IMG/VR virus record: IMGVR_UViG_3300006028_000016
Coordinates: 1 to 44,978 of that record
Source of the DNA: a virus
Strand: one strand, 5' to 3'
Length of the DNA stretch: 44,978 bases
Below the pieces are notes generated by a model. That model made no database searches. It was not told the origin of the DNA and saw nothing but the letters and a program-made list of their open reading frames with translations. Position 1 is the stretch's first letter; each line of letters starts with the position of its first letter. Position numbers and translations under genes: made by a program. Below, piece after piece: positions 8,225-44,844 of the stretch.

Positions 8225-8392
8225 ATGGCTAGCTACACCGTCGCTGGACATCCCATCGGAGGCCTCGCCAACACCAACCTTCCCGAGGCGCTGCGCGACC
8301 TCCTGCAGAGCAACGGCGTCGGCGCCAATATCAGCATCGCCCTCTCCGGCCCCGACGACACCAAGGCCAAGGCGCACGGCCTCGTCAAGTGA
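8225..8392 (+). CDS. Small 55-residue protein of unknown function
   Basis: The ATG has a CAGGAG site upstream and the stop overlaps the next GTG (GTGA). The protein begins MASYTVAGHPIGGLA and has a central helix (EALRDLLQSNGVGANISIAL). I do not recognise a family. It is the first gene of the module with glycosyltransferases, epimerase and collagen-like fibre, so it may be a small virion or accessory protein of that module. Confidence 0.65.
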   Translation: MASYTVAGHPIGGLANTNLPEALRDLLQSNGVGANISIALSGPDDTKAKAHGLVK

Positions 8393-9597
8393 CCAAGACC
8401 CGGCTGCTCATCCACTCCAACGCGCCGTGGGCGCCGACCGGCTACGGCCAGCAGGTCGCGCTGTTCGCGCCGCTGCTGGTCGAGCACTACGACCTCGCCA
8501 TCAGCGCCTTCTACGGCCTCCAGGGCGGCGCGCAGTTTTGGCACGGCATCCCTGTGCTGCCCGGCGCCGGGAGTGACATGGGCAACCACACCATCGTCGA
8601 GCACGCCCGCCACTGGTTCGGCGGCGACAGTCACGCGGGGCTGGTGCTGACCATTTGCGACGTCTGGCCGTTTGACGCGCGGCTGCTGGGCGAGCACCTG
8701 AACCTGGCCTGCTGGACGCCCGTCGACCACCAGCCGGCGCCGCCCAAGGTCTTTGACTTCCTCGCCGATTCCGGCGCGGTGCCGATCGCCATGAGCCGGT
8801 TCGGGGAGCGGATGCTGGCGCTGCTTGACCCCCTCTACTGCCCGCACGGCGTCGACGCGAGCGTCTACCGCCCTATGGGCCGCCGCCGCGTCCGCCGCGG
8901 CCGCGTCCCCGACGACGCCTTCCTCATCGGCATGGTCGCCGCCAACAAGGGCCACCCGTCGCGCAAGGCCTTCCCCGAGGCGCTGGCCGCCGTTGCGCGC
9001 CTCATGCGAGCGCACGACAACGTCTACCTCTACCTCCACACGGTGCTTGATCCCGTGCACGGCCAGGGCGTCGACCTGCCCGCGCTGCTTATCTCCCTCG
9101 GCATCCCCGACGACCGCGTCCGCCAGGCCGACCAGTACGGGATGGTGCACATCCCCTATGGGCCCGAGCAGATGGCCTCCATCTTCAACGGCCTCGACGT
9201 GCTGCTGAACCCGTCGTTCGGGGAGGGGTTCGGCGTCACCGTGCTGGAGGCCGCCGCCTGCGGCGTCCCCGCCGTCGTCACCGACTTCACCGCCATGCCC
9301 GAGGTCGCCGGGGACGCGGGCTGGAAGGTCACGCACCGTCCCTACTGGAGCGGCCTGAACTCCTGGCAGGCCATCCCGGACATTGACGCCATCACCGAGG
9401 CGCTGGAGGAGTGCTATGGCCTGACCGTCGCGCAGCGCGCGCAGCGCGCCGACGAGGCGCGATGTCACGCCGAGGGCTATGACGCGCCGCGCGTGCTGGA
9501 GGAGCACTTCCTGCCGGCGCTGCGCCGCGCCGAGCAGCGCTTCGTCCTGCGCCAGCCGGTGACCATCCCCTCGCGGCGGCGGGCGGTGGCGGCATGA
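8389..9597 (+). CDS. Glycosyltransferase, GT4-like (GT-B fold)
   Basis: This 402-residue protein is a retaining GT-B glycosyltransferase by pattern. The C-terminal half holds the donor-binding E-x7-E motif at E279/E287 in NPSFGEGFGVTVLEAAACG, followed by GVPAVVTDFTAMPEV. The N-terminal half has HSNAPWAPTGYGQQV, typical of the acceptor domain. The donor sugar cannot be read from sequence. It is the first of three glycosyltransferases, coupled to neighbours by 4-base overlaps on both sides. A role in modifying a virion protein or the host envelope is inferred from its position inside the structural operon next to a collagen-like fibre gene. Confidence 0.88.
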   Translation: MTKTRLLIHSNAPWAPTGYGQQVALFAPLLVEHYDLAISAFYGLQGGAQFWHGIPVLPGAGSDMGNHTIVEHARHWFGGDSHAGLVLTICDVWPFDARLLGEHLNLACWTPVDHQPAPPKVFDFLADSGAVPIAMSRFGERMLALLDPLYCPHGVDASVYRPMGRRRVRRGRVPDDAFLIGMVAANKGHPSRKAFPEALAAVARLMRAHDNVYLYLHTVLDPVHGQGVDLPALLISLGIPDDRVRQADQYGMVHIPYGPEQMASIFNGLDVLLNPSFGEGFGVTVLEAAACGVPAVVTDFTAMPEVAGDAGWKVTHRPYWSGLNSWQAIPDIDAITEALEECYGLTVAQRAQRADEARCHAEGYDAPRVLEEHFLPALRRAEQRFVLRQPVTIPSRRRAVAA

Positions 9598-10346
9598 GGA
9601 TCGGGTGGCTGCACGACCAGCCCGGCTATGTCGGCGGCGCCGAGCTCACCGAGCGCGCGCTGCGCGCCGCCGCCCCCGACGGCGTCCAGATCGTCGACTG
9701 CTCGCCCGGGCGCGTCGCGCCCGGCCTGGACCGCTACGCCGTGCACAACTGCGTCACCTACAGCCTCGACGACCTGCGCGGCATCGAGGGCAGGCCCGCC
9801 GTCAAGCTCTGGAACGACGTCGGGGGCTGGTACGACGAGCCCGTCCGCGGCTGGCTGGACAGCCACGCCCAGGCGATCTGTCTCTCGCCGCTGCAGGCCG
9901 AGTACATGGGCCTCCCCGACGCGCTGCTCATCCCGCCCGCCATTGACCTCGACCCCTTCGAGGCCGCTGCGCTGCAGAGCAACGGCGACCGGCGGGGCGC
10001 CGTCTGCGTCGGCTCCTGGCGCAACCACGGCAAGGGCGCGCGCGTCGTCGAGCGCTGGGCAGCGGAGAACGGCGGCGTCGACTTCTACGGCGGCGGGCCC
10101 TTCGCCCCCCAGGCCTCGCAGCCGGTCGCGCACGCCGGGATGCCCGGCCTCCTCGCGCGCTACGAGACGTTCGTGTTCCTGCCCCAGGTCATCGAGCCGT
10201 TCGGGCGCTGCGCCGCCGAGGCCTGGGCCGCCGGGTGCACGCTCGTCGTCAACGGCCTCGTCGGCGCCGCCTGGTGGCTGCGCGAGCGCCCCGAGGCGCT
10301 CGTCAGCGCCGCCGAGGACTTCTGGGAGGCGGTGCTCGATGCCTGA
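9594..10346 (+). CDS. Short GT-B glycosyltransferase
   Basis: This 250-residue protein resembles a reduced GT4 enzyme. It begins with MRIGWLHDQPGYVGGAELT, the GG/E-type start seen in GT-B enzymes, and carries E-x7-E at E201/E209 (IEPFGRCAAEAWAAG). It is about 100-150 residues shorter than usual GT4 proteins; the acceptor domain is compact. It overlaps the GT upstream by 4 bases and the GT-A gene downstream by 8. Substrate is unknown. Confidence 0.75.
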   Translation: MRIGWLHDQPGYVGGAELTERALRAAAPDGVQIVDCSPGRVAPGLDRYAVHNCVTYSLDDLRGIEGRPAVKLWNDVGGWYDEPVRGWLDSHAQAICLSPLQAEYMGLPDALLIPPAIDLDPFEAAALQSNGDRRGAVCVGSWRNHGKGARVVERWAAENGGVDFYGGGPFAPQASQPVAHAGMPGLLARYETFVFLPQVIEPFGRCAAEAWAAGCTLVVNGLVGAAWWLRERPEALVSAAEDFWEAVLDA

Positions 10347-10932
10347 CGTCGTCGCCGTCATCCCCACCATCGAGGGCCGCGAGGCTGACCTGAAGCGCAC
10401 GCTCAGCGCCTACGAGGCCACGGCGCCCGAGGCGCGCGTCATGGTCGTCCACGACCGCCCCTCCTGCGGGCAGGCGTGGCTTGACGGCGCCGAGGAGGCA
10501 GGCGCCTTTGACTACCTGCATTTCGGCGCCGACGACCTCGAGCCCCACGCCGGCTGGCTGGAGGTCGCGGTCGAGACCGTCGACAGGGGCCACATCCCGG
10601 CGCCGCTGGTCTTTGAGCCCGACGGCGCCCTCGACAGCGCCGGTCTGCTCGGCTTCGGGCAATACCGCGGGCCCTATGTCGACTGGCAGCTGGTCGAGGG
10701 CACCACCGTCCCGTTTTTGACCTGCGAGATGTGGGAGGCCATCGGCATGATCCCCGTCCACTACTGCTCCGATCTCTGGGTTAGCGCCATGGGCCGCCGC
10801 CACGGCTGGGAGACGGCCGTTCGCACCGGCATGGCCTTCACCCACTGGACGGCCCCGGCCGGGCGCAACTATGGGCGCGCTGGGCCCGACACGCAGGCTT
10901 ACCTGCGCCTGCTGGAGGAGGCGTCATTGTGA
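10339..10932 (+). CDS. GT-A type glycosyltransferase (GT2-like)
   Basis: This 197-residue protein starts with MPDVVAVIPTIEGREADLKRTL, the usual beginning of GT-A nucleotide-sugar binding domains, and has a DxD-like metal site in FGADDLEPHAGW (D65, D66, E68). The C-terminal part contains CEMWEAIGMIP and an AFTHW segment. The ATG at 10339 overlaps the previous stop region; the frame stays open upstream only as a shadow. It is small for the family. It probably works with the two GT-B enzymes on one glycan, which is inference from linkage. Confidence 0.75.
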   Translation: MPDVVAVIPTIEGREADLKRTLSAYEATAPEARVMVVHDRPSCGQAWLDGAEEAGAFDYLHFGADDLEPHAGWLEVAVETVDRGHIPAPLVFEPDGALDSAGLLGFGQYRGPYVDWQLVEGTTVPFLTCEMWEAIGMIPVHYCSDLWVSAMGRRHGWETAVRTGMAFTHWTAPAGRNYGRAGPDTQAYLRLLEEASL

Positions 10933-11813
10933 GGATTCTGGTCACCGGCCACCGCGGCTTCATCGGCATGCACCTGTGCGCCGAGTTTGAGAGCGCCGGA
11001 TATGACGTCTGCGGCCATGACCGCGACGAGGGCGACCTGACGCACCCGGGCATCTTCGACGGCGTCGTCCGCGACGCCAAGCCTGATCGAGTCATCCACC
11101 TCGCCGCGCAGGTTGGGCGTCTGTTCGGGGAGGCCGACGTGCGCCACACCATTGCCGCCAACGCGACGATGACCGCGATCGTCGGGCGCTCCTGCGGCAG
11201 CCGCGGCATCCCCGTCCTCTATGCCTCCACCTCGGAGGTCTATGGCGACCAGGGCGACCGCGTCTGCCGCGAGAACGGCCCGCTGGCGCTGCCGCACAAC
11301 CTCTACGGGCTGAGCAAACGCTGGGGCGAGGAGGCGCTGCGCCTCTACGCGCCCGAGGGCTTACAGATCGTAAGGCTGTCGATGCCGTACGGTCCCGGGG
11401 CGCCACCCGGCCGCGGGCGCCGCGCGATGGACAACTTTCTCTGGTGGGCGCATCACGGCATGCGGATCACTGTCCACCGTGGCGCCGAGCGGTCCTGGTG
11501 CTGGGTTGGCGACACCGTGCGCGGCATCCGCCTGGTGCTGGAGGGCGGCGCGCATGAGGTCTACAACGTCGGCCGCGACGACCGCCCGCTCTCCATGCTC
11601 GCCCTTGCCCGCAAGGCCTGCGCCCTCGCCGACGCCGACCCGGCGCTGATCGAGGTCGTCGAGCCGCCGGCGGCGCAGACCGTCGTCAAGCGCCTGGCGA
11701 CGAGCCGTCTGCGCGGCCTTGGCTGGCGCCCGACGGTCGAGCTCGACGAGGGCATGCGCGAGGTTTACGAGTGGGTCAGGCAATTCCCCCGACCAGTCGC
11801 GGAGGCCGCATGA
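10929..11813 (+). CDS. NAD(P)-dependent sugar-nucleotide epimerase/dehydratase (extended SDR)
   Basis: This 294-residue protein is an extended short-chain dehydrogenase. The Rossmann motif is TGHRGFIG (G7, G10, G13), the acidic NAD-ribose contact lies near D31-D33, and the active site is S100/T101 (YASTSEVYG), Y126 and K130 (LYGLSK). Such enzymes epimerise or dehydrate nucleotide sugars such as UDP-glucose or dTDP-glucose. The GTG overlaps the GT-A gene by four bases. It probably supplies a modified donor to the three adjacent transferases; the exact reaction is not determinable here. Confidence 0.88.
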
Positions 11814-13144
11814 CGCCCGTCCAGTACCTCATCGTCGGCGAGCCGCTCGGCTCGGCCGTGACCGACCTGCTCGGCGAGGACACCCGCCGCATTATCTGGA
11901 ACGCCGGGGTCGGCTCCGTCGTCACCCTTGACCTCGACGTCGACGACGCCAACCAGATGATCGCGTGGGGCGCGCTGATGGTGTGGACCGGCGACCAGCC
12001 ACCCGCTGGCGGCGACGTCCTCCTCAGCGAGGACCAGCAGACGCATCTCGCCGCGCTGCTGGACTGGTCCAGGGTCAACGGGTTCGTGCCCGAGCCGCCG
12101 CCCGCGGATTGGCCGGGTGTCCCCGCCACCGGCCCCGGGCCGCAGGGCCCTCCGGGCGACAAGGGCCCGACGGGCGACCCCGGCTCGCAGGGGCCGCAGG
12201 GCCCGCAGGGCGACCCTGGCGTGCAGGGCCCTCCCGGCGCGCAGGGGCCGCAGGGCGCCATGGGGCCGGCCAACACGACTCCCGGGCCGCAGGGCCCGCA
12301 GGGCGACCCGGGGCCCGCCGGACCGGCCGGCGCCTCCGGGCCGCAGGGCGATGCTGGACCGGCCGGGCCCGCCGGGCCGCAGGGCACGCCCGGGCAGTCG
12401 TTCACCTACAAGGGCAACTGGAAGACCGGCGTCACCTACTCGACCCGCGACGTCGTCCTCGCCTCCGACCAGAACTCCTACATCGCCGTGTCGGGCTCGC
12501 AGAACGTCGACCCGACCACCGACACGGCCGGGGTCGACTGGGCGCTGTTCACCATCCACGGCGCGCAGGGCCCCGCTGGGCCCGCGGGCCCGCAGGGCGG
12601 CGCGGGCGACGTCGGGCCCGCTGGGGCCGCTGGGCCCGTCGGGCCGCAGGGCAACGTCGGGCAGACCGGCGCGCAGGGCCCGCAGGGCGCCGCCGGTCCC
12701 AAGGGCGACACCGGCGTCGCCGGGCCTGCGGGCGCGCAGGGCGCGCAGGGCGTCCAGGGCCCCGCCGGGCCCATCGGCCCGGCTGGCCTCACCGGGCCTC
12801 AGGGCGCGCAGGGGCCGCAGGGCCCGGCCGGGCTGACCGGCCCGACCGGCGCGACCGGCGCTACGGGCGCGACCGGCCCGCAGGGGCCGCAGGGCCCGAT
12901 GCCGACCGTGCAGCGCGGCTCGGGCAGCCTCACGTTCACCACCTCGTCCAACACCAGCAACACCGTCACCGTCAGCCACTCGTTCGGCTCCACGGCCTAC
13001 ACCGCGCTCCTGTCGGCGACAACCATGGCCGCCGGAACGGTCTCGCTCGTCGTCTCCAACAAGACCGCCACCAGCTTCCAGGTCACCGGCTATTACTCGG
13101 CCAAGCTGGCGCTCACTTTCAATTTCGACTGGACGATCCTCTAA
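11810..13144 (+). CDS. Collagen-like virion fibre with carbohydrate-binding-like insert
   Basis: This 444-residue protein has four parts. Residues 1-107 are a globular anchor. Residues about 108-195 and 251-363 are Gly-X-Y collagen repeats ([16 protein letters not shown] and similar), expected to form a triple helix. Residues about 196-250 interrupt them with an aromatic module ([17 protein letters not shown]...VDWALF) like small CBM5/12 chitin-binding folds. Residues 364-444 are a beta-rich head ending FNFDWTIL. It starts at the ATG that overlaps the epimerase stop. It is probably a head or neck fibre. Linkage to three glycosyltransferases suggests it could be the glycosylated substrate, which is inference; no lysyl or prolyl hydroxylase is present. 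Confidence 0.85.
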
Positions 13145-13153
13145 GGAGGCAGC

Positions 13154-13327
13154 ATGCCCAAGTACAAGGTCACCGGGCCCGTCCCCGAGCCCTACCGGCT
13201 CGACTACGAGGAGGGCGACACCTTCGACTACGACTTCCCCGAGGACGTCGAGCAGACGCTGCTCGACGCTGGCGCCATCGAGGAGGTCGAGGAGGAGAAG
13301 AAGACGACGAGGTCCAAGAAGACGTGA
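13154..13327 (+). CDS. Small acidic protein of the neck region
   Basis: This 57-residue protein (MPKYKVTGPVPEPYRLDYEEG start, Lys-rich end) follows a perfect AAGGAGG site and its stop overlaps the next GTG. Short proteins with a K-V-T-G-P start and a final acidic helix are common between connector and tail-terminator genes of actinophages. Function unknown. Confidence 0.7.
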   Translation: MPKYKVTGPVPEPYRLDYEEGDTFDYDFPEDVEQTLLDAGAIEEVEEEKKTTRSKKT

Positions 13328-13755
13328 GCACCGCGACGCGCCGCGCGCTCTACGGAAGCATGGCCGGGGACACCACCCTCGGCGGGCTGCTGGGCGCGCC
13401 CGCGCCCGGCTACAACCACGCCATCTACTACCAGTCTGCGCCTGACAGCGCCGCCTTCCCGCTGGTCATCTTCTCCAAGCAGGCCGGGACGCCGACGGAG
13501 GCGTTCGGGGACCCCGACGCCGTCGACGACGAAATCTGGCTCATCAAGGCCGTCGACCACGCCCCGGGCGCCGACGCCGCCGAGGCCGCCTCCGAGCGCG
13601 TGACCAGCCTGCTCGACGACCAGACGCTCTCCCTCGCCGGGGGCGCCGCCTGCCTCTACCTGCGCCGGCAGTCCGACATCGACTACCAGGAGCTCGCCGC
13701 GGGCGAGGTCTACTGTCATGCCGGGGCTCTCTACCGCCTCGTCTACGAGCCCTGA
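13324..13755 (+). CDS. Tail terminator-like protein (DUF3168-like)
   Basis: This 143-residue protein has the pattern of tail terminator/completion proteins: an N-terminal helix (TRRALYGSMAGDTTLGGLLG), a central strand region (PLVIFSKQAG...DEIWLIKAVDH), a long helix (GADAAEAASERVTSLLDD) and a C-terminal strand (QELAAGEVYCHAGALYRLVYE). Such proteins form the ring that stops tail-tube growth. GTG start overlaps the previous stop (GTGA). Assignment is from fold pattern and order. Confidence 0.68.
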   Translation: MSTATRRALYGSMAGDTTLGGLLGAPAPGYNHAIYYQSAPDSAAFPLVIFSKQAGTPTEAFGDPDAVDDEIWLIKAVDHAPGADAAEAASERVTSLLDDQTLSLAGGAACLYLRRQSDIDYQELAAGEVYCHAGALYRLVYEP

Positions 13756-15316: not shown

Positions 15317-18300
15317 GTGGCGTCCACCGCCGCCGTCCTCCAGGTCGTCGTCGACGCGGACACCACCGCGGCGACCGCCAAGCTGTCGAAATACGACCGG
15401 CAGCTGGCCGCGATCAACGAGACGTCGCGCAAGGGCATCCAGACGCGCCTCGGGGCCTCCTACAACCCCGAGGCGTTCGCGCGCTACGAGAAGGCGCTCT
15501 CCACGGCGGCATCGCGGGCCCGCGACCGCGCCGCCTTCAAGGCCGAGCTCGGCGCCAACTTCAACGCCTCCGCGTTCACGCAGTACCAGCGCGCCGTCGA
15601 GCGGGCCGGGCGTGAGACCGAGACCACCGCCCGCCACACCGAGCACCTCAACCGTTCCGTCGGGCACCTGGCGCGCACGTTCCTTGAGCTTGGCGGCGCC
15701 TACGAGGCGCTCCACCTCGGCAAGGAGGCCGTCGACCAGACGCTGGAACTCGGGCACGCCACCGAGCGGCTCTCGGCCATCACCGGCATGAACACCAAGC
15801 AGGCGTCGCTGTGGATCGAGGCGGCCAAGGCCCGCGGCGTCCAGGCGCGCGCGCTGGGCATGCAGTTCGTCACCCTGTCGCGCAACATCAAGGCGGCCGG
15901 CGACGGCGACACCAAGCATGCCGGGCAGATCAAGGCGCTGGTGGCGCGCCAGAAGGAGCAGACCGCCGCCGCCCAGCAGACGGGAACGGCGACGGCGCGC
16001 GTCACGCGCCTGCAGCAACGCCAGGCCCTCGCCGTCCAGCAACTCCAGCAGCGCCAGCAGGCGCAGATGAGCGCCGCCAGGGCCGCCGGGGAGTCACCCG
16101 AGAAGCTCGCGCGGCTCGCTGACCGTCAGGCGCTCGCCATGCAGCAACTCACCGCCCGGCAGCGCCTGCAACTCCAGCAGGCGCAGCAACTCGGCGGTTC
16201 CAGCGCCAAGCTGACGGACCTGCAGAAGAAGCAGGCGACCGCGCTGGACGCGCTCAAGGGCAAAACCGACAAGGCCAACGCCGCGTTCAAGCTGCTCGGC
16301 GTCAGCCAGGAGACGCTCAAGAGCGGCAATACGCAGGAGGTGCTGCTGGCGGTTGCGGACGGCCTGCAGAAGATCAAGGACCCCGCGACGCGCGCTGCGC
16401 TCGCGCAGCAGCTGTTCGGCCGCACCGCGCAGGGCCTCCTCCCGGTGCTCGCCCAGGGCCATAAGGGCGTCGAGGAGATGCTGGCGGCAGCCAACCGCTA
16501 CGGGGCGTACCTGCCCCAGAACATCCGGCAGCTGCACCAGGCCGTCGACGCGCAGCACAACCTCAACCTCGCCATGGACGGGCTGAAAATCTCGTTCACC
16601 ACGGCCGTGCTGCCCTACCTGGTGCAGGGCGCCGACAAGCTGCTCGCCTTCATCGCCCAGATGCGCTCCGGCAAGGGCGCCGGCGGGCAGTTCGCCGACG
16701 CGATCAAGACCGCGTTCGGGACGGCCAAGACGGCGGTCAAGTGGTTCGTCGACGAGGTCGGCGGGATCGGCCCGGCGCTGGAGATAGCCGCGGGAGCGTT
16801 CGCCACCAAGAAGGTCCTCCAGTTCGGGCGCTTCGCCAGCGAGGTCGCCGGGGCCGCCAAGGGGCTCGCAGGCATCCCCGGCAAGCTCGGGCGGGTCGCC
16901 GGGATCGGCAAGGCCGCCGAGAGGGCGGCGGGCATGCCCGAGATGACCGTCGACGTGATGATCGTCAAAAAAATGATCGGCGGCGGGGGCGGCCCCGGCG
17001 GCGCACCGACGACCACTGCCGAGAAGGACGCCGTCAAGGAGGCCGAGAAGGGCCGGTTCGGGCGGCTGTGGGACAAGATGGGGCCCGGCAAGTACCTGCT
17101 CCCGCTCGCCGCGGGCACGGCCGCGCCGTTCGTGACCGCGTGGGGCATCCGTAAGTTCGCGCAGGGCACCGTCGGCGGCGTCCCCGGCCAGATCCACGGG
17201 CAGTTCTGGGGCGGCAGGTTCTCCCCCAACTTCGGCGGCATCGGCCCGACCGCCGCCACCGGCCTCATCCCTCGCCCCGGCGCCGGTGGGACGAGGCTGC
17301 TGATGGGCGCGGCCGCGAACCTGAACCCAGCGCAGGTCACCAAGGACTTCCTGGCCATGAACGCTGCGCTGGCCAGGCTGGAGCAGCACCAGGCGGGCGT
17401 GCGCCGCACCGCCGATGCGCTCGACCGCCTCGCCGACCGCGCCAACCGCCTCGGCGAATACAAGTACGCCATCGCCGACCGGTTCGGCGCCGAACTCCTC
17501 CGCACCCGCAACGTCGCCAGCCGCGGCGTCACCGGCATCGTCAACAAGCTTCGCGACCTCCCGCCCAAGGCGCGCGCGCAGGCGGCGCTGGCGATGATCC
17601 AGATGTCGCAGACCCTGGAGCGCATGGGCGCCATCCCCAAGGGCACCACCGCGCGTCTCAGCAAGCAGATCGCCGCGCCCCTCGGCCAGATCGGCGTGCA
17701 CGCCAGGACGTCGGCCGGGCAGGTCAAGCAGCTGAGGACCGCGATCGACGAGCTCCCGAACTCCAAGGCGATCACCTTCAACGTCGACGCCCACTTCTCC
17801 AGCGCCGCCGAGCGGCTGTTCTACACGACCGGGGCGAACCCGCGAGGCGTGGCCATCCCGTTCACCGGCACCCGCGGCCGAGGGCACGCCGGGCCCAGCG
17901 GCCGCAGGCCCAGCGGTGGTGGCGGTGGCGGTGGCGGTGGCGGTGGCGGTGGCGGTGGCGGCGGTGGTGGTGGTGGTGGTGGCGGCGGTGGTGGTGGCGC
18001 TGCCGCCCGGGCAGCGGCAGTCGTCGCCCGCCAGGACGCCGCTTCGCGCCGGCAGGCCGCGGCCGCCGCCGGGCAGCAGGCCGCCGCCGACCGGCAGCAG
18101 GCCGCCGCCGACCGGCAGCAGAAGGCCGCCGAGGCCGCTCAGAAGGCCGAGGCCGTCTTCGAGGCCTACTGGGCGCGCATCCCCAGCCAAGGCGTCATAC
18201 AGCAAATCAAGATGCAGCAACTCACCAACCAGCAGACCCTCGCGCAGAACGCCAACAACGTCCCCGGGCAGGAGAAAGCGCTCAGGTCCGAGCAGAAGCT

Positions 18301-32731: not shown

Positions 32732-33220
32732 ATGCGCGCCCCCGTGGCGCCCCTGCCCCCAGCCAGCGACTCGGGGCAGGGGACAAGACCAGCACTTGTC
32801 AACCAACTCTGCCCGCGATGCCACCGACCGACCCTCGAACTGCACCACAGCCTTCAGCTGCACGGGACCTGCTGCCAGGACTGCTACGAGCGGGGTGCGC
32901 CGCCCAGCGACCAGGCGCGCCACTACAAGCCGCGCCGCGAGCGGCCGGTGCCGCGGCCCCGTCCGACGGAGTACGAGCAGCTCGTCACCGACGTTCACGC
33001 CGCGCTGGACGCCGCCAACGTCGCCGTGCACGGACGGACCGGGAGCGTGTTCGGGCTCGGCGACCCCCGGCTGCCGCTCATGGGCTACTGCCCCGCGTGC
33101 CGGACCGGCACGGTCGCGATCCGGCTGATCCGCGGCGCGCGCGCCTCGCACGCCCGGACCGAGGGGTGCAGCGATGGCTGCCCCGGCGAGCGGGTGCTGG
33201 AGGTGATATGGCCGAGATAA
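32732..33220 (+). CDS. Zinc-ribbon protein
   Basis: This 162-residue protein contains two potential zinc sites: CPRCH with CCQDC (about 27-50), and CPAC with a later C/C pair (about 119-152). It is Arg/Pro-rich in the middle. The start at 32732 lies four bases after the SSB-like stop. It overlaps the next gene by 13 bases. Probably binds nucleic acid; no enzyme motif. Confidence 0.6.
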   Translation: MRAPVAPLPPASDSGQGTRPALVNQLCPRCHRPTLELHHSLQLHGTCCQDCYERGAPPSDQARHYKPRRERPVPRPRPTEYEQLVTDVHAALDAANVAVHGRTGSVFGLGDPRLPLMGYCPACRTGTVAIRLIRGARASHARTEGCSDGCPGERVLEVIWPR

Positions 33221-34464: not shown

Positions 34465-34697
34465 CCCCGACCGGGTACACCACCGCCCGCGAGCACGCGA
34501 TCCGCGCGTCGGAGCTGCTCAACGGCGTCGACGAGTACGACCAGCAGCTCCAGAGGCTCGACGAGGCCGAGCGGCTGCACATGATCGCCGCCGGCGCGAC
34601 CAGTGCCGCGAACGCGCAGATGGAGTTCTGGCGCGACCTGGCCGTCGCGCACGCGCAGACCGCGCTCGCGCTCGCCGCCACCGAGGAGGGGTCGTGA
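34461..34697 (+). CDS. Small helical protein
   Basis: This 78-residue protein is predicted to be two or three helices (AREHAIRASELLNGVDEYDQQ, EAERLHMIAAGATSAANAQM, DLAVAHAQTALALA). ATGA overlap before it and GTGA after it. Unknown function. Confidence 0.6.
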   Translation: MTPTGYTTAREHAIRASELLNGVDEYDQQLQRLDEAERLHMIAAGATSAANAQMEFWRDLAVAHAQTALALAATEEGS

Positions 34698-35338
34698 TCG
34701 AGCCCCTGCTGATCCTCGACTCCCGCGAGCAATGGTGGCCGGTCGCCGTCGAGACCATCCCGCAGGTCGGCGGCACCGTCGACGGGCAGCCCGCCGACCC
34801 GCACGACCTCCCGGCCGTCGGCGGCCGCATCGACCTCCCCAAGGACATGACGCAGCCGCAGGTCGGGACGCGCGGCTACCACCGCGTGCAGGACGGCGGG
34901 TCGCTGTGGTGGCACCAGTTCTGGCTGTTCTACCTCTACAACCCCAAGACCTACGCCGGCATCGGCGCGCACGAGGGCGACTGGGAGATGGTCCAGCTCG
35001 GGTGCCGCGACCCCGAGGGCAACGTCCCCATCCTCATGACCTGCTCGCAGCACGGCGGCGGGGAACGCCGCGAATACTGGCGCACCGAGCTACGCGACGG
35101 TCGCCCTGCCGTGTACGTGGCGCGCGACAGCCACGCCAACTACTTCGCGCCGCACCGCGACGTCACCGACCAGGCCGACGGGCAGGGCCTCGAGCTGACC
35201 GGCATCGAGTGGCTGGGGTTCGGCGCCTGGGCTGACTGGCCGGGGCGGTGGGGCAACTCGGAGAACTCGCCGGGGCCGCTGGCGCCGCGGCGGGAGTGGC
35301 AGGCACCGCACGCGTTCCACGGGCAGGCGCGCGGATGA
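34694..35338 (+). CDS. Vps62-like protein
   Basis: This 214-residue protein contains YLYNPKTYAGIGAHEGDWEM and RPAVYVARDSHANYFAPH, the H-x-GDWE and SHANYF signatures of the Vps62/DUF946 family (PF06101), which is found in plants, fungi and actinobacteria and has no firmly known biochemical role; some members are toxin-like. GTG start. Its stop at 35336-35338 lies in GCGCGGATGA, a 10-base sequence repeated exactly at the start of the resolvase gene at 38342-38351, which indicates that the two genes used to be adjacent. Confidence 0.7.
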   Translation: MIEPLLILDSREQWWPVAVETIPQVGGTVDGQPADPHDLPAVGGRIDLPKDMTQPQVGTRGYHRVQDGGSLWWHQFWLFYLYNPKTYAGIGAHEGDWEMVQLGCRDPEGNVPILMTCSQHGGGERREYWRTELRDGRPAVYVARDSHANYFAPHRDVTDQADGQGLELTGIEWLGFGAWADWPGRWGNSENSPGPLAPRREWQAPHAFHGQARG

Positions 35339-35364
35339 CGACCAACCTGGAGCAAAACGGGGGT

Positions 35365-36117
35365 TCATGCAGCGCTCTCGCGCAGCCGCTTGATGCGTCG
35401 TTCCGCTGTCCGTCGGGTGATGTTCCAGTGCTTGGCGAGCGCCGGTGCTTTCCAGTCCAGCAGTTCGGCGTCGGCGCGCCACCGCTCGAGTTCGGCATTG
35501 CTCGCTGCGGGCCGTCCGGCCGCTCCATTGCGAGCGAGGCGGTCGATGAGGTAGCGCCGCTCGGTGTCGTCCGCGATCTCACTGAGGGTTCGCTTAGCGA
35601 TCGCGTCGAGCTCTCGACGACGTGCTGTCGGGATGCGCCGCCGGCGACTCTCGCGGGCGTGCTCGTCGAATGTCATTCCGTGCTTGGCTTGCGCGCGCGC
35701 CCGCTCCGGGATCGGCGAGGCGCGCATCGCGCCGCTGTCCCGCAGCCACCCGAGATGCCTGGCGCGATCGAGCAGCGACTCACCGGTCGGCGAATGCCAC
35801 GCCGTTGCCGCTTCCGCCAACGGACGGCGATGTTCGTTGCTGGCGGATTTGTCCATCATCGGTGCCAATTCCTTGGCTCCTGCGTTGTAGGCCAGCACCC
35901 GCGAGACGTCCTCGTAGTGCATGCCGCAGGCGATCAGGAAATAGTCCAGCTCGGCTTCGCGCCATGCCTCGTGCCCGGTTGCCATGTGATAGTCGCGCCA
36001 CGCGCCCGACGTTGCGATGTCGACTACCGCGTCGGTGAGTTCGGCGACACGCCCGAGATTCTGAATGTGGCTCGTGAACGTCAGAACGCGCCGGCCATTG
36101 GGATCGACCAGGTTCAT
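35365..36117 (-). CDS. Partner protein of the HNH-helicase cassette, C-terminal HTH
   Basis: This 250-residue protein overlaps the helicase stop by four bases (ATGA) and so is coupled to it. I do not recognise a family. The N-terminal half is helical (RVAELTDAVVDIATSGAWRD, EAELDYFLIACGMHYEDV); the middle is Arg/Glu-rich (HARESRRRRIPTARRREL), and the end (DWKAPALAKHWNITRRTAER, then RIKRLRES) looks like a helix-turn-helix. No nuclease or NTPase motif is visible. It might regulate the cassette, recognise DNA for the helicase, or be an effector. Confidence 0.7.
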   Translation of the reverse strand: MNLVDPNGRRVLTFTSHIQNLGRVAELTDAVVDIATSGAWRDYHMATGHEAWREAELDYFLIACGMHYEDVSRVLAYNAGAKELAPMMDKSASNEHRRPLAEAATAWHSPTGESLLDRARHLGWLRDSGAMRASPIPERARAQAKHGMTFDEHARESRRRRIPTARRRELDAIAKRTLSEIADDTERRYLIDRLARNGAAGRPAASNAELERWRADAELLDWKAPALAKHWNITRRTAERRIKRLRESAA

Positions 36118-38177
36118 CCGACGCCTCGCATTCCGCGCGGATGCGCCTTGCCGGTCTGGCGGCAGTAGGCGGCGATATGGGCGACCTCGTGCTCGAGAAC
36201 CAGTTTCAGCCGTTCGGGCGGGGCGCTATCGCGACCACCGCCGCTCTTGATGCCCGCTGCGGTGTTGGCGCGACCCGCGAAAACGCCGATGGGAACGTCG
36301 CCGTTGACCGCCCACCACTTCTCGAGCTCGCGGATCTGCCCCATCGTGAGGCTGGAGCTTTCTTCGATCGACACGGGCCTGATGAAAGCGTCGTGCGTGG
36401 AGACGGCGCCGGCGTCGAATGGGCGTCGGCGCTCCTGCTCAGCGGCGATGTCACCCATTGCGGCCAGCACCCGAGCATGCAGGACCGTCGGCAGGTTGTA
36501 GCGCTCGAGAACCTCCGCGACCGCATGCAATTGCTCAGCGGTGAACGTGACATCACTGTCGCCCAGCGGCACCGTCACGCGTTCCGCGCCCGGTGTGACC
36601 GATTGGACGTGGTAGGCGACGTCGATCAGGCGCGGTTCGCGTTCAGTTGGAGCGTCGCGCTCTCGGAGGTCATCGGCACCGTCATCACCAATGGTGATCT
36701 CGTGACTGATTGGCGCGAGGTACTCCTTGAGCTTCTCGATCAGCACCGGGACGTCGGGCACGACGACCACTGCCGGGATGACCCGCCCGCGGTTGCGCTC
36801 GATCGCCGTGACGCGTTGAGCGCGGGCGACGACCTGGCGGACGTAGAGGTTCGTCAGCTTGTTGGTGGCGTAGCCGACGACGACGATGTCGGGACAGTCG
36901 TAGCCCTCGCCGGCCATGTCGACGGTGCACAGGACACCCACTCGGTCCGAGCGTCGGAACGCCTCGAGTGTGCGGGCGGCGTCGGGATCGTCGCTGACGG
37001 CGATCTCGGCCAGGGGCCGCAGACCGCGCGCATGCATCTGCTCGTTGACCTCGTTTTGAAAGAGCCGGGCGTCGGCCTGACGGGCGGCGACGATCAGCGC
37101 TTTGACGTGGTGGCCGCCGAGCGCGTCGTGCGCCTCCTGCAGTCGATCGAGGATGCTGCGGACGAACGCCTCCCGCCATGGGTGATGAGCGCCGAGTTCG
37201 CGCAACGTCGCACGCGCCGGCGCCTCATCCAGGTCGGCCATGTTGGAGTCGATCATCTCGAACTGAGCGGTGTCGAACAGCTCAACGCGCCCGTCGACGT
37301 GGCGGATGTCGATCGGCCGCAGCTCGCCCTCGCGGATGATCTGCTCGGCGGGGACGTTCCAGTCCTGCTCGGCCTCGAGGCGGTTGTCGCCGAGCGTGCG
37401 GTAGCGAACGGTGGAGATCCGCTCGTCGACGCGAGACCGCCACAGGGTGCCCGAGAGATTGAGGACTCCGGCGACGTTGAGGCCGACGTCGACCTCGCCC
37501 GCGAGCTCGGCGACATTGCGTGCCCACGCCGGGCGAGTACGACCCTCGCGCTCGCCGACGTGGTGGACCTCATCGAGTACCAGCAGCGTGCGCTTGGCGC
37601 GTGCAGCGTGACGATGCACGTTGAGGGTGTCGGCGTTCAGAGACTGGTAGGTCGTGACGACGCCGTCCTGCCCCGGGCGCTCGAGCTCGGCGCCGGGCTT
37701 GAGCTCAATGTGCCGGGCGCCGAACAGCGCGCCCGTCCACTGCTCCACGAGCGTGCGCCGCGGCGCGAGGACGACCATGCGGTCGATGACGTCGGCGTCG
37801 TGCAGCGCCTCGAACACGAGGCCGGTGAAGATCGTTTTGCCGGCGCCCGGGGCAGCGCTCAGGGTCGCGGCGCCATCGTTGATGATGCGCTTGACGATGG
37901 TGTCCAGTGCCGCGAGCTGCCACTCGCGCGGCGTGGTGCGCGTGTCCCGGACGTCCTGGGCGCCCTGTACGAGATTGCAGCGGGAGCACCACGCCTCAAG
38001 GTTGGACTCGACGAGCGCGCCGCCGTGGGTATGCGAGCGCAGATGCGCGACGTGGAAGGTGTCGAACTCGATCGACTTGCCGCAGCCGTCACGCTGGCAG
38101 ATGCCATTCGAGCGTTGATAGACGGACTCTCGCATCGCGCGAGAGGGCCGTTTGCGCGGCCGGTCTTGGGACTGCAT
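36114..38177 (-). CDS. HNH nuclease fused to SF2 helicase
   Basis: This 687-residue protein joins two domains. Residues about 15-75 are an HNH/zinc nuclease: C27 and C32, H45 (VAHLRSHTHGG), N59, C64-x2-C67-N68. Residues about 80-500 are a superfamily 2 helicase of the SSL2/restriction type: Walker A PGAGKT (110-115), DEVH box (202-205), SGT motif III (242-244), motif VI QVVARAQR (448-455). A C-terminal 180 residues is unknown and carries HEVAH (663-667). The ATG at 38177 was preferred over TTG at 38240 because the promoter and operator lie between them. Nuclease-helicase fusions of this kind are typical of phage defence; function here is inferred. Confidence 0.88.
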   Translation of the reverse strand: MQSQDRPRKRPSRAMRESVYQRSNGICQRDGCGKSIEFDTFHVAHLRSHTHGGALVESNLEAWCSRCNLVQGAQDVRDTRTTPREWQLAALDTIVKRIINDGAATLSAAPGAGKTIFTGLVFEALHDADVIDRMVVLAPRRTLVEQWTGALFGARHIELKPGAELERPGQDGVVTTYQSLNADTLNVHRHAARAKRTLLVLDEVHHVGEREGRTRPAWARNVAELAGEVDVGLNVAGVLNLSGTLWRSRVDERISTVRYRTLGDNRLEAEQDWNVPAEQIIREGELRPIDIRHVDGRVELFDTAQFEMIDSNMADLDEAPARATLRELGAHHPWREAFVRSILDRLQEAHDALGGHHVKALIVAARQADARLFQNEVNEQMHARGLRPLAEIAVSDDPDAARTLEAFRRSDRVGVLCTVDMAGEGYDCPDIVVVGYATNKLTNLYVRQVVARAQRVTAIERNRGRVIPAVVVVPDVPVLIEKLKEYLAPISHEITIGDDGADDLRERDAPTEREPRLIDVAYHVQSVTPGAERVTVPLGDSDVTFTAEQLHAVAEVLERYNLPTVLHARVLAAMGDIAAEQERRRPFDAGAVSTHDAFIRPVSIEESSSLTMGQIRELEKWWAVNGDVPIGVFAGRANTAAGIKSGGGRDSAPPERLKLVLEHEVAHIAAYCRQTGKAHPRGMRGVG

Positions 38178-38290
38178 GAGGGTTCCGTTCAGTTGAGGAT
38201 CGTGATGCCTGCGACAATAATACGCGAATTTTTGTCGCAAGTTACATTTGCCATATCGGCCCGGTGGCCTAGGAGCATGAGGGTTCCGTT
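38174..38290. repeat. 16-bp direct repeat flanking the cassette promoter
   Basis: GCATGAGGGTTCCGTT occurs at 38174-38189, covering the helicase start codon, and identically at 38275-38290. The copies are 101 bases apart and bracket the promoter. They may be leftover duplication from assembly of the cassette or a recombination site. Confidence 0.7.
38210..38239 (-). promoter_or_regulatory. Promoter and operator of the HNH-helicase cassette
   Basis: Within an AT-rich dip, TGCGACAA (38210-38217) and TTGTCGCA (38232-38239) form a perfect inverted repeat with centres 22 bases apart. On the minus strand a -10-like TATTAT falls between the arms, so binding there would block transcription. It lies 33 bases upstream of the helicase ATG. 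The binding protein is unknown; the HTH partner is a candidate. Confidence 0.5.
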
Positions 38291-38347
38291 TGAGGCGCCG
38301 GGTCGACTTACGTTTCGGGATGACTGCGACCCTCGGGGCGTGCGCGG

Positions 38348-38869
38348 ATGATCGGGTTCGTCGTCCTCGGCCGCCCCCAGCCCGCCGGCAGCAAACGTGC
38401 GTTCGCTGTCCGCAAAGGCGGCCGGCTCACCGGTGCCGTCGCCGTCGTCGAGACCGCGGAAAAGCGCGTCCGCCCCTGGCAGGCGCTAATCCGCGACGCC
38501 GCCCTCCAAGCCATGCAAAGCCAGGAGCTACTCGACGGCGCGCTGATCCTCGAAGTCGACTTCTACCTCGCGCGCCCCCGCTCGCACTACCGCACCGGCC
38601 GCCATAGCGAGCAGCTGCGCGACGCCGCGCCGTCCTACCCCACCACCCGCCCGGACGCGACCAAGCTCCTCCGGGGCCTGGAGGACGCGCTCACCGGGAT
38701 CGTGTGGCGCGACGACGCGCAGATCGTCACGCAAGTCGCGCGCAAACGCTACGGCACGCCGGAGCGCGCCGACGTGCTCGTCGACCACGCATACCCCAAC
38801 CTCAGCGACATCACCCCTGACCGGCAGTACCTCGGCCGGCTGTTCGCCAGCACAGAGGAGGAGGCATGA
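38348..38869 (+). CDS. rusA: RusA-type Holliday junction resolvase
   Basis: This 173-residue protein resolves branched DNA before packaging. It begins GFVVLGRPQPAGSKRAF, the RusA start, and contains RPDATKLLRGLEDAL followed by GIVWRDDAQIV, with metal-binding acids D103, D113 and D122/D123, and a basic RKRYG segment. Length is slightly above the usual 120-150 residues. It is the first plus-strand gene after the inserted cassette and overlaps the next gene by four bases. Confidence 0.88.
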   Translation: MIGFVVLGRPQPAGSKRAFAVRKGGRLTGAVAVVETAEKRVRPWQALIRDAALQAMQSQELLDGALILEVDFYLARPRSHYRTGRHSEQLRDAAPSYPTTRPDATKLLRGLEDALTGIVWRDDAQIVTQVARKRYGTPERADVLVDHAYPNLSDITPDRQYLGRLFASTEEEA

Positions 38870-39108
38870 CCATCAAAGCCCAAGAGTCCTACGACGCCGC
38901 GGTCGCCAGTCTCACCGCCACCATCGCGCACATCGACGCCGCCATCGCCGTGCTCAACGCCCCCGGGAAAGCCATCGGCTACGACGAGGGACTGCGCAGC
39001 GGGCAGATCGGGCAGGCCGTCGCCGTCCGCGTCCGCAACAGTCTCGCCGCCGCCCGGGAGGACCTTGCGCACCAGGCCGCGCAGATGATCCGCATGGAGC
39101 AGCCGTGA
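38866..39108 (+). CDS. Small helical protein
   Basis: This 80-residue protein is almost entirely helical (QESYDAAVASLTATIAHIDA, NSLAAAREDLAHQAAQMIRM). ATGA overlap with RusA and GTGA overlap with the next gene. No family recognised. Confidence 0.6.
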   Translation: MTIKAQESYDAAVASLTATIAHIDAAIAVLNAPGKAIGYDEGLRSGQIGQAVAVRVRNSLAAAREDLAHQAAQMIRMEQP

Positions 39109-39548
39109 CCGCCGACCGGCCCGAGGGCGCGTGCCCCGGGTACTGCTGCGCCGCGTTCACCTACCCGCGGACGCTCAGCCAGATTCGTCGCGACCCGCCC
39201 GCCTACGACGGGGAGATGATCGCCGACATGCTCATCCCGCTGACGCCGAAGCAGGCGCGGGAGCGCTATGAGCGGTTCGGCGGGCCCGCGGAGCGCTCCG
39301 GGTTCCGCTGGAAGTCCCGCGGGCACCACTTCACCTGTCGCCACTGGGATGAGGAGACGCGGCTGTGCACGGTCTACGAGGACCGGCCGGCGATGTGCCG
39401 CGACTACCCGTACGGGCAGGAGTGCCAGCACGGGTGCGGGCGCGTGGGCGGGCTGCCGTCGGAGGAGCGGATGCGGATTCGCGAGGAGCGGTGGGCGAAC
39501 CAGTGGAAGGCGTACGAGGCGCCCAAGCCCGCGGAGAGGCTTCCGTGA
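39105..39548 (+). CDS. Cys-cluster (YkgJ-like) protein 1
   Basis: This 147-residue protein has CPGYCC near the start (10-15) and FTCRHWDEETRLCTVYED, RPAMCRDYPYG at about 75-105, followed by CQHGC. This is the metal or Fe-S cluster-binding pattern of the YkgJ/CxxCxxCC family. A second copy of the same kind is encoded at 44368-44844. Function unknown. GTG start in a GTGA overlap. Confidence 0.72.
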   Translation: MTADRPEGACPGYCCAAFTYPRTLSQIRRDPPAYDGEMIADMLIPLTPKQARERYERFGGPAERSGFRWKSRGHHFTCRHWDEETRLCTVYEDRPAMCRDYPYGQECQHGCGRVGGLPSEERMRIREERWANQWKAYEAPKPAERLP

Positions 39549-39772
39549 GGCTCTCCGGGATCAGGTCCGGCGACATCATCCGCGCCGGCGGCATGCACGC
39601 CGTCGTCATCCGCAAAGACCGACGCGCGCTCGTCGTCAGCCTCCTCACCGGCGCCGGCACCCGCCGCATCCACGCCGACGAGATCGAGGCGCACTGGCGC
39701 CGCGCCGGAATCAGCGCCACCCGCTGGCGCATCCCGCCCTCGCCACGCCGTCCCGACCCCATCCAGGACTGA
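39545..39772 (+). CDS. Small SH3/KOW-like protein
   Basis: This 75-residue protein starts VRLSGIRSGDIIRAGGMHAV and continues with VIRKDRRALVVSLL, strands reminiscent of a small SH3-like barrel, then a basic tail. GTG start, GTGA overlap. No known function. Confidence 0.55.
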   Translation: MRLSGIRSGDIIRAGGMHAVVIRKDRRALVVSLLTGAGTRRIHADEIEAHWRRAGISATRWRIPPSPRRPDPIQD

Positions 39773-44056: not shown

Positions 44057-44371
44057 ATGATCGCCCCATGCGCCGAGCCCGGCTGCCCGCAGCCAGCTGC
44101 CTACCGCGGCCGCTGCCGCGCCCACGCCCGCGTCTCTGAACGCGGCATTCTCCGCGCCGGATATCACCTCTACCGGACCAAACGCTGGCGGCTGACCCGC
44201 GAACGCCAGCTACGCGACCACCCATTGTGCGAGTGCGGCGCCATCGCCGAGCACGTCCACCACCGCACCGACCTGGCCGCCGGAGGCGCAGCCTTCGACC
44301 CCGCCAACCTGCAGTCGCTGTGCGCCTCCTGCCACAGCCGCGAGACACGGCAACGCCAGGTGAACGCATGA
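44057..44371 (+). CDS. HNH endonuclease (packaging-associated)
   Basis: This 104-residue protein has an N-terminal zinc pattern (CAEPGCPQPA...GRCRAH) and an HNH core: HPLCECGAIAEHVHHRTDL, then FDPANLQSLCASCHSRET. It lies just before the terminase small subunit, as in many HK97-type cos phages where a small HNH enzyme is needed with the terminase for end cleavage. Its stop overlaps the next ATG by four bases. Confidence 0.88.
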   Translation: MIAPCAEPGCPQPAAYRGRCRAHARVSERGILRAGYHLYRTKRWRLTRERQLRDHPLCECGAIAEHVHHRTDLAAGGAAFDPANLQSLCASCHSRETRQRQVNA

Positions 44372-44844
44372 CCGGATTCCGCAGCGGCGCGACGACCTGC
44401 CCCGGCCAGTGCTGCGCCGTCCTACAGCTATCCGGCACGCTCGACGAGCTACGGGAGGCCGCCCCCATCATGCTCGACGGACCCTCCGTCCTGGCCATGA
44501 TCGAACCGATCAGACGCGACGACGCGATCAAGCGCAGCCTCCAGCATGGCGCCGACCCGACCGCCATCAGCCAGGCCACGCCCGGGCGGCTGTTCACCTG
44601 CCGCCACTGGGACACCGAGACGCACCTGTGCCGCGTCTACGAGCAGCGGCCCACGATGTGCCGCGACTATCCCTACGGCGAGGCGTGCGCCCACTGCGGC
44701 CTCACCATGGGCGTCAGCCCCCTCGACCGCGCGCAGCAGCGCGCCAGGCGCGAGGGGGAGGGTCGCATGCGCGCGCATGACCCAGCAGGGGCCGCCTGGG
44801 GGCTGCCTGCGAAAAAAACCCCGCGCATGCGGGGGCAAGCCTAA
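44368..44844 (+). CDS. Cys-cluster (YkgJ-like) protein 2
   Basis: This 158-residue protein shares the pattern of the one at 39105-39548: CPGQCCAVLQLS at the start, then FTCRHWDTETHLCRVYEQ, RPTMCRDYPYG and ACAHCG. Between them lies a helical insert of similar length. A metal or Fe-S cluster is likely; function unknown. It sits between HNH nuclease and terminase small subunit. Confidence 0.72.
   Translation: MTGFRSGATTCPGQCCAVLQLSGTLDELREAAPIMLDGPSVLAMIEPIRRDDAIKRSLQHGADPTAISQATPGRLFTCRHWDTETHLCRVYEQRPTMCRDYPYGEACAHCGLTMGVSPLDRAQQRARREGEGRMRAHDPAGAAWGLPAKKTPRMRGQA

Follow-up and report, generated by a model that had tools for sequence, protein, structure and literature searches.

A conserved and probably mobile phage gene pair, encoding an HNH nuclease-SF2 helicase fusion and a partner protein, as candidate defence cargo

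The virus record IMGVR_UViG_3300006028_000016, whose 44,978 bases were analysed in full and are called the window in this paper, carries a two-gene cassette encoding a fusion of an HNH nuclease with a superfamily 2 (SF2) helicase and a smaller partner protein. The cassette is real and its gene pair is conserved, as the helicase gene is directly followed by the partner gene in 14 loci, namely the window, 12 other viral contigs and one Chloroflexi metagenome-assembled genome (MAG). The position of the cassette varies and is, judged by inspection, often within the lysogeny region; the pair is probably mobile. We regard it as an even call that it is movable cargo of temperate phages and that its two proteins would together form a module for attack on the DNA of competing phages or on other mobile DNA. 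That these cassettes belong to an undescribed defence family borne by mobile elements, in which an HNH-RadD-like translocase is combined with a partner having a new N-terminal domain that would license or target the nuclease, and whose members would be found in a variety of temperate phages and, in a distant second form, in prophages and plasmids of actinobacteria, is proposed tentatively and at somewhat under even chances.

The two minus-strand open reading frames (ORFs) sit between plus-strand genes, one of which ends at 35338 and the other of which starts at 38348. The fusion protein of 687 residues is encoded at 36114-38177 with its ATG at 38177 (Pfam HNH 3.4e-6, ResIII 7.3e-15), and the partner of 250 residues at 35365-36117, both genes sharing an ATGA overlap. 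A Vps62-like gene on the left (34694-35338, Pfam Vps62 2.7e-5) and a gene for a RusA-like resolvase on the right (38348-38869, Pfam RusA 1.8e-16), both on the plus strand, lie outside the cassette. The original prediction, made from the sequence of the window, had described a minus-strand pair interrupting plus-strand genes, and this arrangement was found as described.

The original prediction had also proposed to look for linkage of the two genes elsewhere and had taken its absence as a reason to give up the defence reading; 13 other loci carry the partner directly downstream of the helicase, and in most loci the two genes overlap. These are L053, which is the Chloroflexi MAG, L057 to L062, L067 and L070 to L074, found by scanning viral contigs with the helicase and with a partner alignment, and genome contigs with a helicase alignment. 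A query with the single partner sequence gave no match in viral contigs or phage records, whereas the alignment queries did find relatives. Identity of the helicases to that of the window ranges from 60% down to 41% in an alignment of 13 rows, from which L074 was left out, its helicase being split over two frames and of lower identity; as a pair locus it is counted. Two further helicase matches (L063 and L064) stand outside the 14 loci, since only about 54 residues were matched there and the partner was not looked for. No partner was found for three helicase relatives, L054 (where the neighbouring genes were inspected) and L055 from Saccharopolyspora (36-37% identity) and the broken L056. A small third gene of the helix-turn-helix (HTH) type follows the partner in L057, L058, L061 and L062, and was dropped as a regular component because it is present in only four of the 14 loci.

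In the fusion protein Pfam recognizes an HNH domain at residues 27-69 (37971-38099, minus strand) and ResIII/DEAD matches, the SF2 core covering approximately residues 80-475 (36753-37940, minus strand). His45, Asn59, Asn68 and Cys27, Cys64 and Cys67 of the HNH domain are invariant in 13/13 aligned members, Cys32 in 12/13, and the residues of the helicase motifs GxGKT, DExHH, SGT and QxxxRxxR are likewise invariant in 13/13. As the catalytic residues of both parts are kept throughout, nuclease and helicase activities are probably both intact. The AlphaFold model (predicted local distance difference test, pLDDT, 79.8) has its best structural match by Z in RadD, followed by XPB and Swi2/Snf2 enzymes; the RadD alignments reach Z 19.3-20.3 with a root-mean-square deviation of 3.7-6.7 A over 329-347 residues. 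Ranking by Foldseek E-value differs, with ALC1 and Chd1 first and RadD fourth, and the sequence-profile match to RadD is 6.5e-5. The HNH part weakly resembles the HNH of Cas9/IscB-like proteins.

The partner shows only sub-threshold HTH_11 and HTH_23 matches in Pfam, at its C-terminus, with nothing above the curated cut-offs in Pfam or NCBIfam and no match in PHROGs or PADLOC. Its model (pLDDT 87.7) consists largely of helices and includes a beta-hairpin. Folded as a whole it has no match with E <0.001 in the PDB or among viral models, and solved structures align weakly, chiefly at the C-terminal HTH (about residues 207-250; 35368-35499, minus strand), where an NtrX/resolvase-like HTH reaches Z of about 4. 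The N-terminal domain may still have a known fold, as only the whole-protein model was compared. The partner had been called HTH-like; this holds for the C-terminus by the sub-threshold Pfam and weak structure matches, while the N-terminal domain is without a confident match. The partners of L057 and L053 lack the C-terminal HTH.

The claim that the cassette is cargo was borne out by its patchy presence, its changing positions and its codon usage, the partner being the most atypical of the 33 window genes that are 450 nt or longer and the helicase the seventh. A scan of viral contigs with RusA revealed 49 relatives, the best at 51% identity. No partner appeared in the examined stretches of these 49 loci; in one of them, L051, the helicase alone was matched, at 24% over 226 columns. 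We searched the whole records of 13 RusA-relative phages, 12 chosen from the 49 loci plus L057, bearing in mind that virus records may be fragments. Both proteins are missing from 12 of the 13 and only L057 was positive, which is not the picture of a fixed replication component shared by all relatives, the finding named beforehand as speaking against the defence reading; one distant pair in a prophage early operon, described below, does point that way. The nearest backbone relative, L011, has homologues of the gene at 33208, of RusA, of a small zinc-type gene, of an excisionase-like gene and of the integrase (57% identity), and thus a related module without the cassette and without the Vps62-like gene. 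The zinc-type gene follows RusA in L011 and L057 and precedes it in the window; the L057 cassette lies beyond this gene and antisense to it, while that of the window is directly upstream of RusA. Patchy presence and differing positions among these phages fit cargo and not a fixed part of replication, and the absence from related phages suggests that the cassette is dispensable. Such variable, dispensable placement in temperate phages is what prophage-encoded defence cargo would show.

In L053, L059, L062, L072, L073 and L074 the cassette has an integrase gene at a distance of at most 2.6 kb. It is 2.6 kb upstream in L053, 1.8 kb upstream in L072, about 340 nt upstream in L074, about 25 nt upstream in L073 and directly downstream in L062; in L059 an integrase and an HTH_3 gene are upstream, the latter about 250 nt away. 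In the window the tyrosine integrase of the phage (40450-41541, plus strand, Pfam Phage_integrase 2.7e-10) is 2.3 kb from the cassette. L072 also contains downstream, at 11319-13726, an ArdC-like anti-restriction gene followed by a HigB-like toxin and HTH genes. The L060 pair is preceded by an HTH_31 gene on the opposite strand and followed by a weak BrnT-like gene (below cut-off) and a ribbon-helix-helix gene; the gene upstream in L058 reads as HTH by eye and has no Pfam match. Gene tables of unannotated loci came from a simple codon-usage script, so that gene starts and the smaller genes are only approximately placed. Hot spots of antiviral systems have been reported in phages (PMC9122126). 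The partnerless helicase of L054 (Saccharopolyspora, 9236-11695) is found near Cas4-Cas1 and RAMP genes, and the broken relative in a Solirubrobacterales MAG adjoins AbiEi/AbiEii. The gene immediately before the HNH-helicase of L054 is DUF5343-like, with a score slightly short of the Pfam cut-off, and the two form a second candidate two-gene system.

No named system was matched by the cassette, as the original prediction had stated: the partner belongs to no confident family, and the nucleases of Hachiman and PbeABCD were not seen. Hachiman is a nuclease-helicase defence of a HamA nuclease and a HamB helicase (PMC12278908), and shares with the cassette a nuclease and an SF2 helicase in two genes. 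However, the cassette has its nuclease, an HNH domain, joined to the helicase in one protein, while that of Hachiman is a separate DUF1837 protein, and neither cassette protein has a DUF1837 match up to E 0.1. As regards HamB, an SF2 core is present; no Hachiman model is among the PADLOC matches to E 0.1 or among the fold matches listed, though a relation to HamB may still exist. PbeA is, according to PMC10853773, a nuclease-SF2 fusion that works together with an ABC ATPase and DndE; it is the best PADLOC match to the helicase part (5.8e-10), but its nuclease is of the HKD and not of the HNH type. PbeB to PbeD (CxC ABC ATPase, DndE) have no counterpart in the two-gene cassette, and the partner matches no PADLOC family to E 0.1. 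The helicase core matches the DNA-repair helicase RadD (YejH), but the alignments start at model residue 79-81 and leave the HNH part unmatched, and RadD is not known to have a co-transcribed partner of this kind. A modification or specificity subunit gene, as in Type I/III restriction-modification, is not found in the cassette, the rest of the phage not having been scanned for methyltransferases. Among the best-matching PMC titles and abstract starts, which mostly do not cover subscription papers, no two-gene system with an HNH-SF2 helicase was found.

If the pair is an attack module, a RadD-like SF2 motor might load on aberrant or branched DNA, such as the intermediates formed when an incoming element replicates or recombines, and translocate, while the fused HNH domain would nick or cut the DNA. 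The co-translated partner, with its helical N-terminal domain and C-terminal HTH, could bind both helicase and DNA and would either set the specificity or keep the nuclease off resident DNA; it may in addition bind a palindrome at the promoter.

Several observations weigh against the reading as mobile defence cargo. The partner was detected in none of the 399 genomes searched from the class of L056 and in two of 400 from the phylum of L053, these two being the genome of L053 itself and one weak match; at most six candidates were scored per genome, and the search of the 399 genomes was run without a positive control. The cassette lies beside terminase genes in L061 and L070, and in L071 a gene that by eye looks terminase-like is about 1.9 kb away; the L067 pair is in line with neighbours on the same strand. 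Neighbouring genes were assessed by inspection, with no background rate for comparison, and genes of such kinds are common in phage genomes anyway. The PADLOC matches of the helicase, to PbeA and others, span only parts of the protein, chiefly the motor, and the partner has none.

A distant version of the pair was found in actinobacteria, where eight regions (seven plasmids and one phage) were opened out of 56 matching records. A helicase relative followed by a protein of about 200 residues is encoded by the Streptomyces plasmids H2, H3 and H11, by phage PIS136 (H1) and by three Saccharopolyspora-class genomes (L088 to L090), the two genes overlapping or lying at most 84 nt apart. In plasmid SAP1 (H5) a longer gene of 452 codons follows the helicase, and in the plasmids H13, H15 and H25 no partner gene is found downstream of it. 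These helicases share about 28-29% identity over 64% of the query. A search of 394 Saccharopolyspora-class genomes (E 1e-40, two candidates scored per genome) gave helicase matches in 95, of which only four begin before the HNH part, one being the genome of L054 itself, and one more begins at position 45. The two partner types were compared by hhalign, at first with three sequences and without significance; with seven sequences the alignment covers 73 columns at 15% identity with E 3.6e-4 and a probability of only 37%. Its score of 33.7 was reached by 0/100 column shuffles (highest 22.5), and a reversed control gave 11.6. The N-terminal domains of both types are probably homologous, judging from these profiles, while the C-terminus of the distant partners differs from that of the window partner.

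By names given by eye, ParA- and FtsK-like genes accompany the distant pair of L113 on its element, and a TnpB-like gene lies near that of L114. In L115 the pair belongs to the early operon of a prophage where, named in the same way, the gene immediately before it is Sak4-like and an SSB-like gene follows at a distance of 3.4 kb; this early-operon placement weakens a reading as pure defence. The distant version supports an old pair bound to mobile elements, and it also favours the strongest of the other explanations, that the pair is an accessory of phage and plasmid DNA recombination, repair or replication, in which a RadD-like motor with a nicking HNH domain would process recombination intermediates and the partner would serve as loader. 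We consider such a role rather unlikely. It would suit the structural alignment by Z to RadD, the L115 operon, the vicinity of RusA to the cassettes of the window and of L057, and the L067 pair. However, the pair is antisense in the window and, relative to RusA, in L057, its positions differ between related backbones, 12 of the 13 RusA-relative records do without it, and it is often accompanied by integrase or repressor genes instead.

The original prediction had further called the cassette a recent and precise insertion into a gene junction, marked by a direct repeat. The 10-base sequence GCGCGGATGA is present at the left border (35329-35338, plus strand), where its TGA is the stop of the Vps62-like gene, and at the right border (38342-38351, plus strand), where its ATG is the RusA start. 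The copies are 3,013 bases apart, and the repeat and its register with stop and start were confirmed. Stop/start overlaps had been called common in this genome; of the 45 plus-strand gene pairs that adjoin with a gap <200 nt, 20 indeed have a 4-nt overlap. The match extends on neither side beyond 10 bases, and a third copy is located at 39576-39585 on the minus strand. When the narrow right border was shuffled, 20/2,000 sequences shared a 10-mer with the left border, and with wider borders 499/2,000 did so; a common 10-mer is thus only mildly unusual for such GC-rich flanks. The in-register position is notable and speaks for insertion; the 6 bases upstream of the start codon are identical in 0/1,378 pairs of plus-strand gene starts. 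The own flank pairs of 13 cassettes share 7-10 bases, and 250-nt flanks taken from different cassettes share at least 10 bases in 26 of 156 pairings. Direct repeats were therefore discarded as a general mark of insertion, own flanks being no better than those combined across loci. Terminal inverted repeats were not obvious by eye.

An uninterrupted Vps62-like/RusA junction, which the original prediction had proposed to seek in related phages, was not found in the viral contigs scanned with RusA and with the Vps62-like protein, the latter having no relative in that scan. The ancestral junction is not seen in L011 either, because this best backbone relative lacks both the cassette and the Vps62-like gene. 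With a 10-mer that stands out only mildly and no empty site detected, insertion by target duplication is unproven; a precise insertion at the junction is consistent with the data without being demonstrated. The original prediction was accordingly correct on the pair, the repeat and its register, the repeat being weak as evidence of insertion; of its interpretation, gene linkage, variable position and cargo character are supported, while a recent and precise insertion and an anti-phage function are plausible only.

The HNH domain and the junction position with its short in-register repeat would also suit a self-mobile element of the homing type, in which the HNH enzyme would cut junctions lacking the cassette and repair would then insert a copy of it. 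We hold this to be improbable, as the flanking genes differ between the inspected loci, neither a fixed site nor a cassette-free allele was seen, the flank repeats do not exceed in length those shared by unrelated flanks, and a helicase fusion of 687 residues plus a partner exceeds free-standing homing enzymes in size.

A promoter of its own had been ascribed to the cassette. The 160 nt upstream of the helicase gene are AT-richer (56% GC) and contain an operator-like inverted repeat at 38210-38239 with 8-bp arms and a 14-nt spacer, modest in that 7/100 shuffles reach it; a sigma-70 scan gave no minus-strand match. A leader ORF of 29 codons (38189-38278, minus strand), read from the sequence, ends 11 nt before the helicase ATG. 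The 16-nt stretch around the leader ATG (38275-38290, minus strand) is identical to that around the helicase ATG (38174-38189, minus strand), of which it is a perfect copy 101 nt upstream; other perfect 16-nt repeats within 300 nt occur in the window only in repetitive stretches at about 12134-12900 and 17918-18120. In L059 a perfect palindrome with 13-bp arms, reached by 0/100 shuffles, lies approximately 90-115 nt ahead of the start taken for the helicase gene (8015).

A toxin-antitoxin-like pair, with the HNH-helicase as toxin and the HTH partner as antitoxin and autorepressor, would agree with the overlapping genes, the HTH and the upstream palindrome, but is equally improbable given the partners of L057 and L053 that lack the C-terminal HTH, a palindrome only modestly above shuffles, and the unusual size of such a toxin.

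Two further observations were made in the window. The proteins encoded at 39105-39548 and 44368-44844 share the cysteine-rich motif FTCRHWD.ET.LC.VYE.RP.MCRDYPYG and are, as read from the sequence, apparently paralogues. The structural half of the phage contains, at 8389-11813, genes which read by eye as glycosyltransferases and a nicotinamide adenine dinucleotide (NAD)-dependent epimerase.

If the pair serves defence, it would represent a nuclease-helicase architecture outside the searched defence models, borne mainly by temperate phages and including a partner whose N-terminal fold has no confident match. How nuclease motors spare resident DNA would then become directly testable in a system of only two proteins. 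If the pair instead aids recombination, it would add a new accessory to the DNA processing of phages and plasmids.

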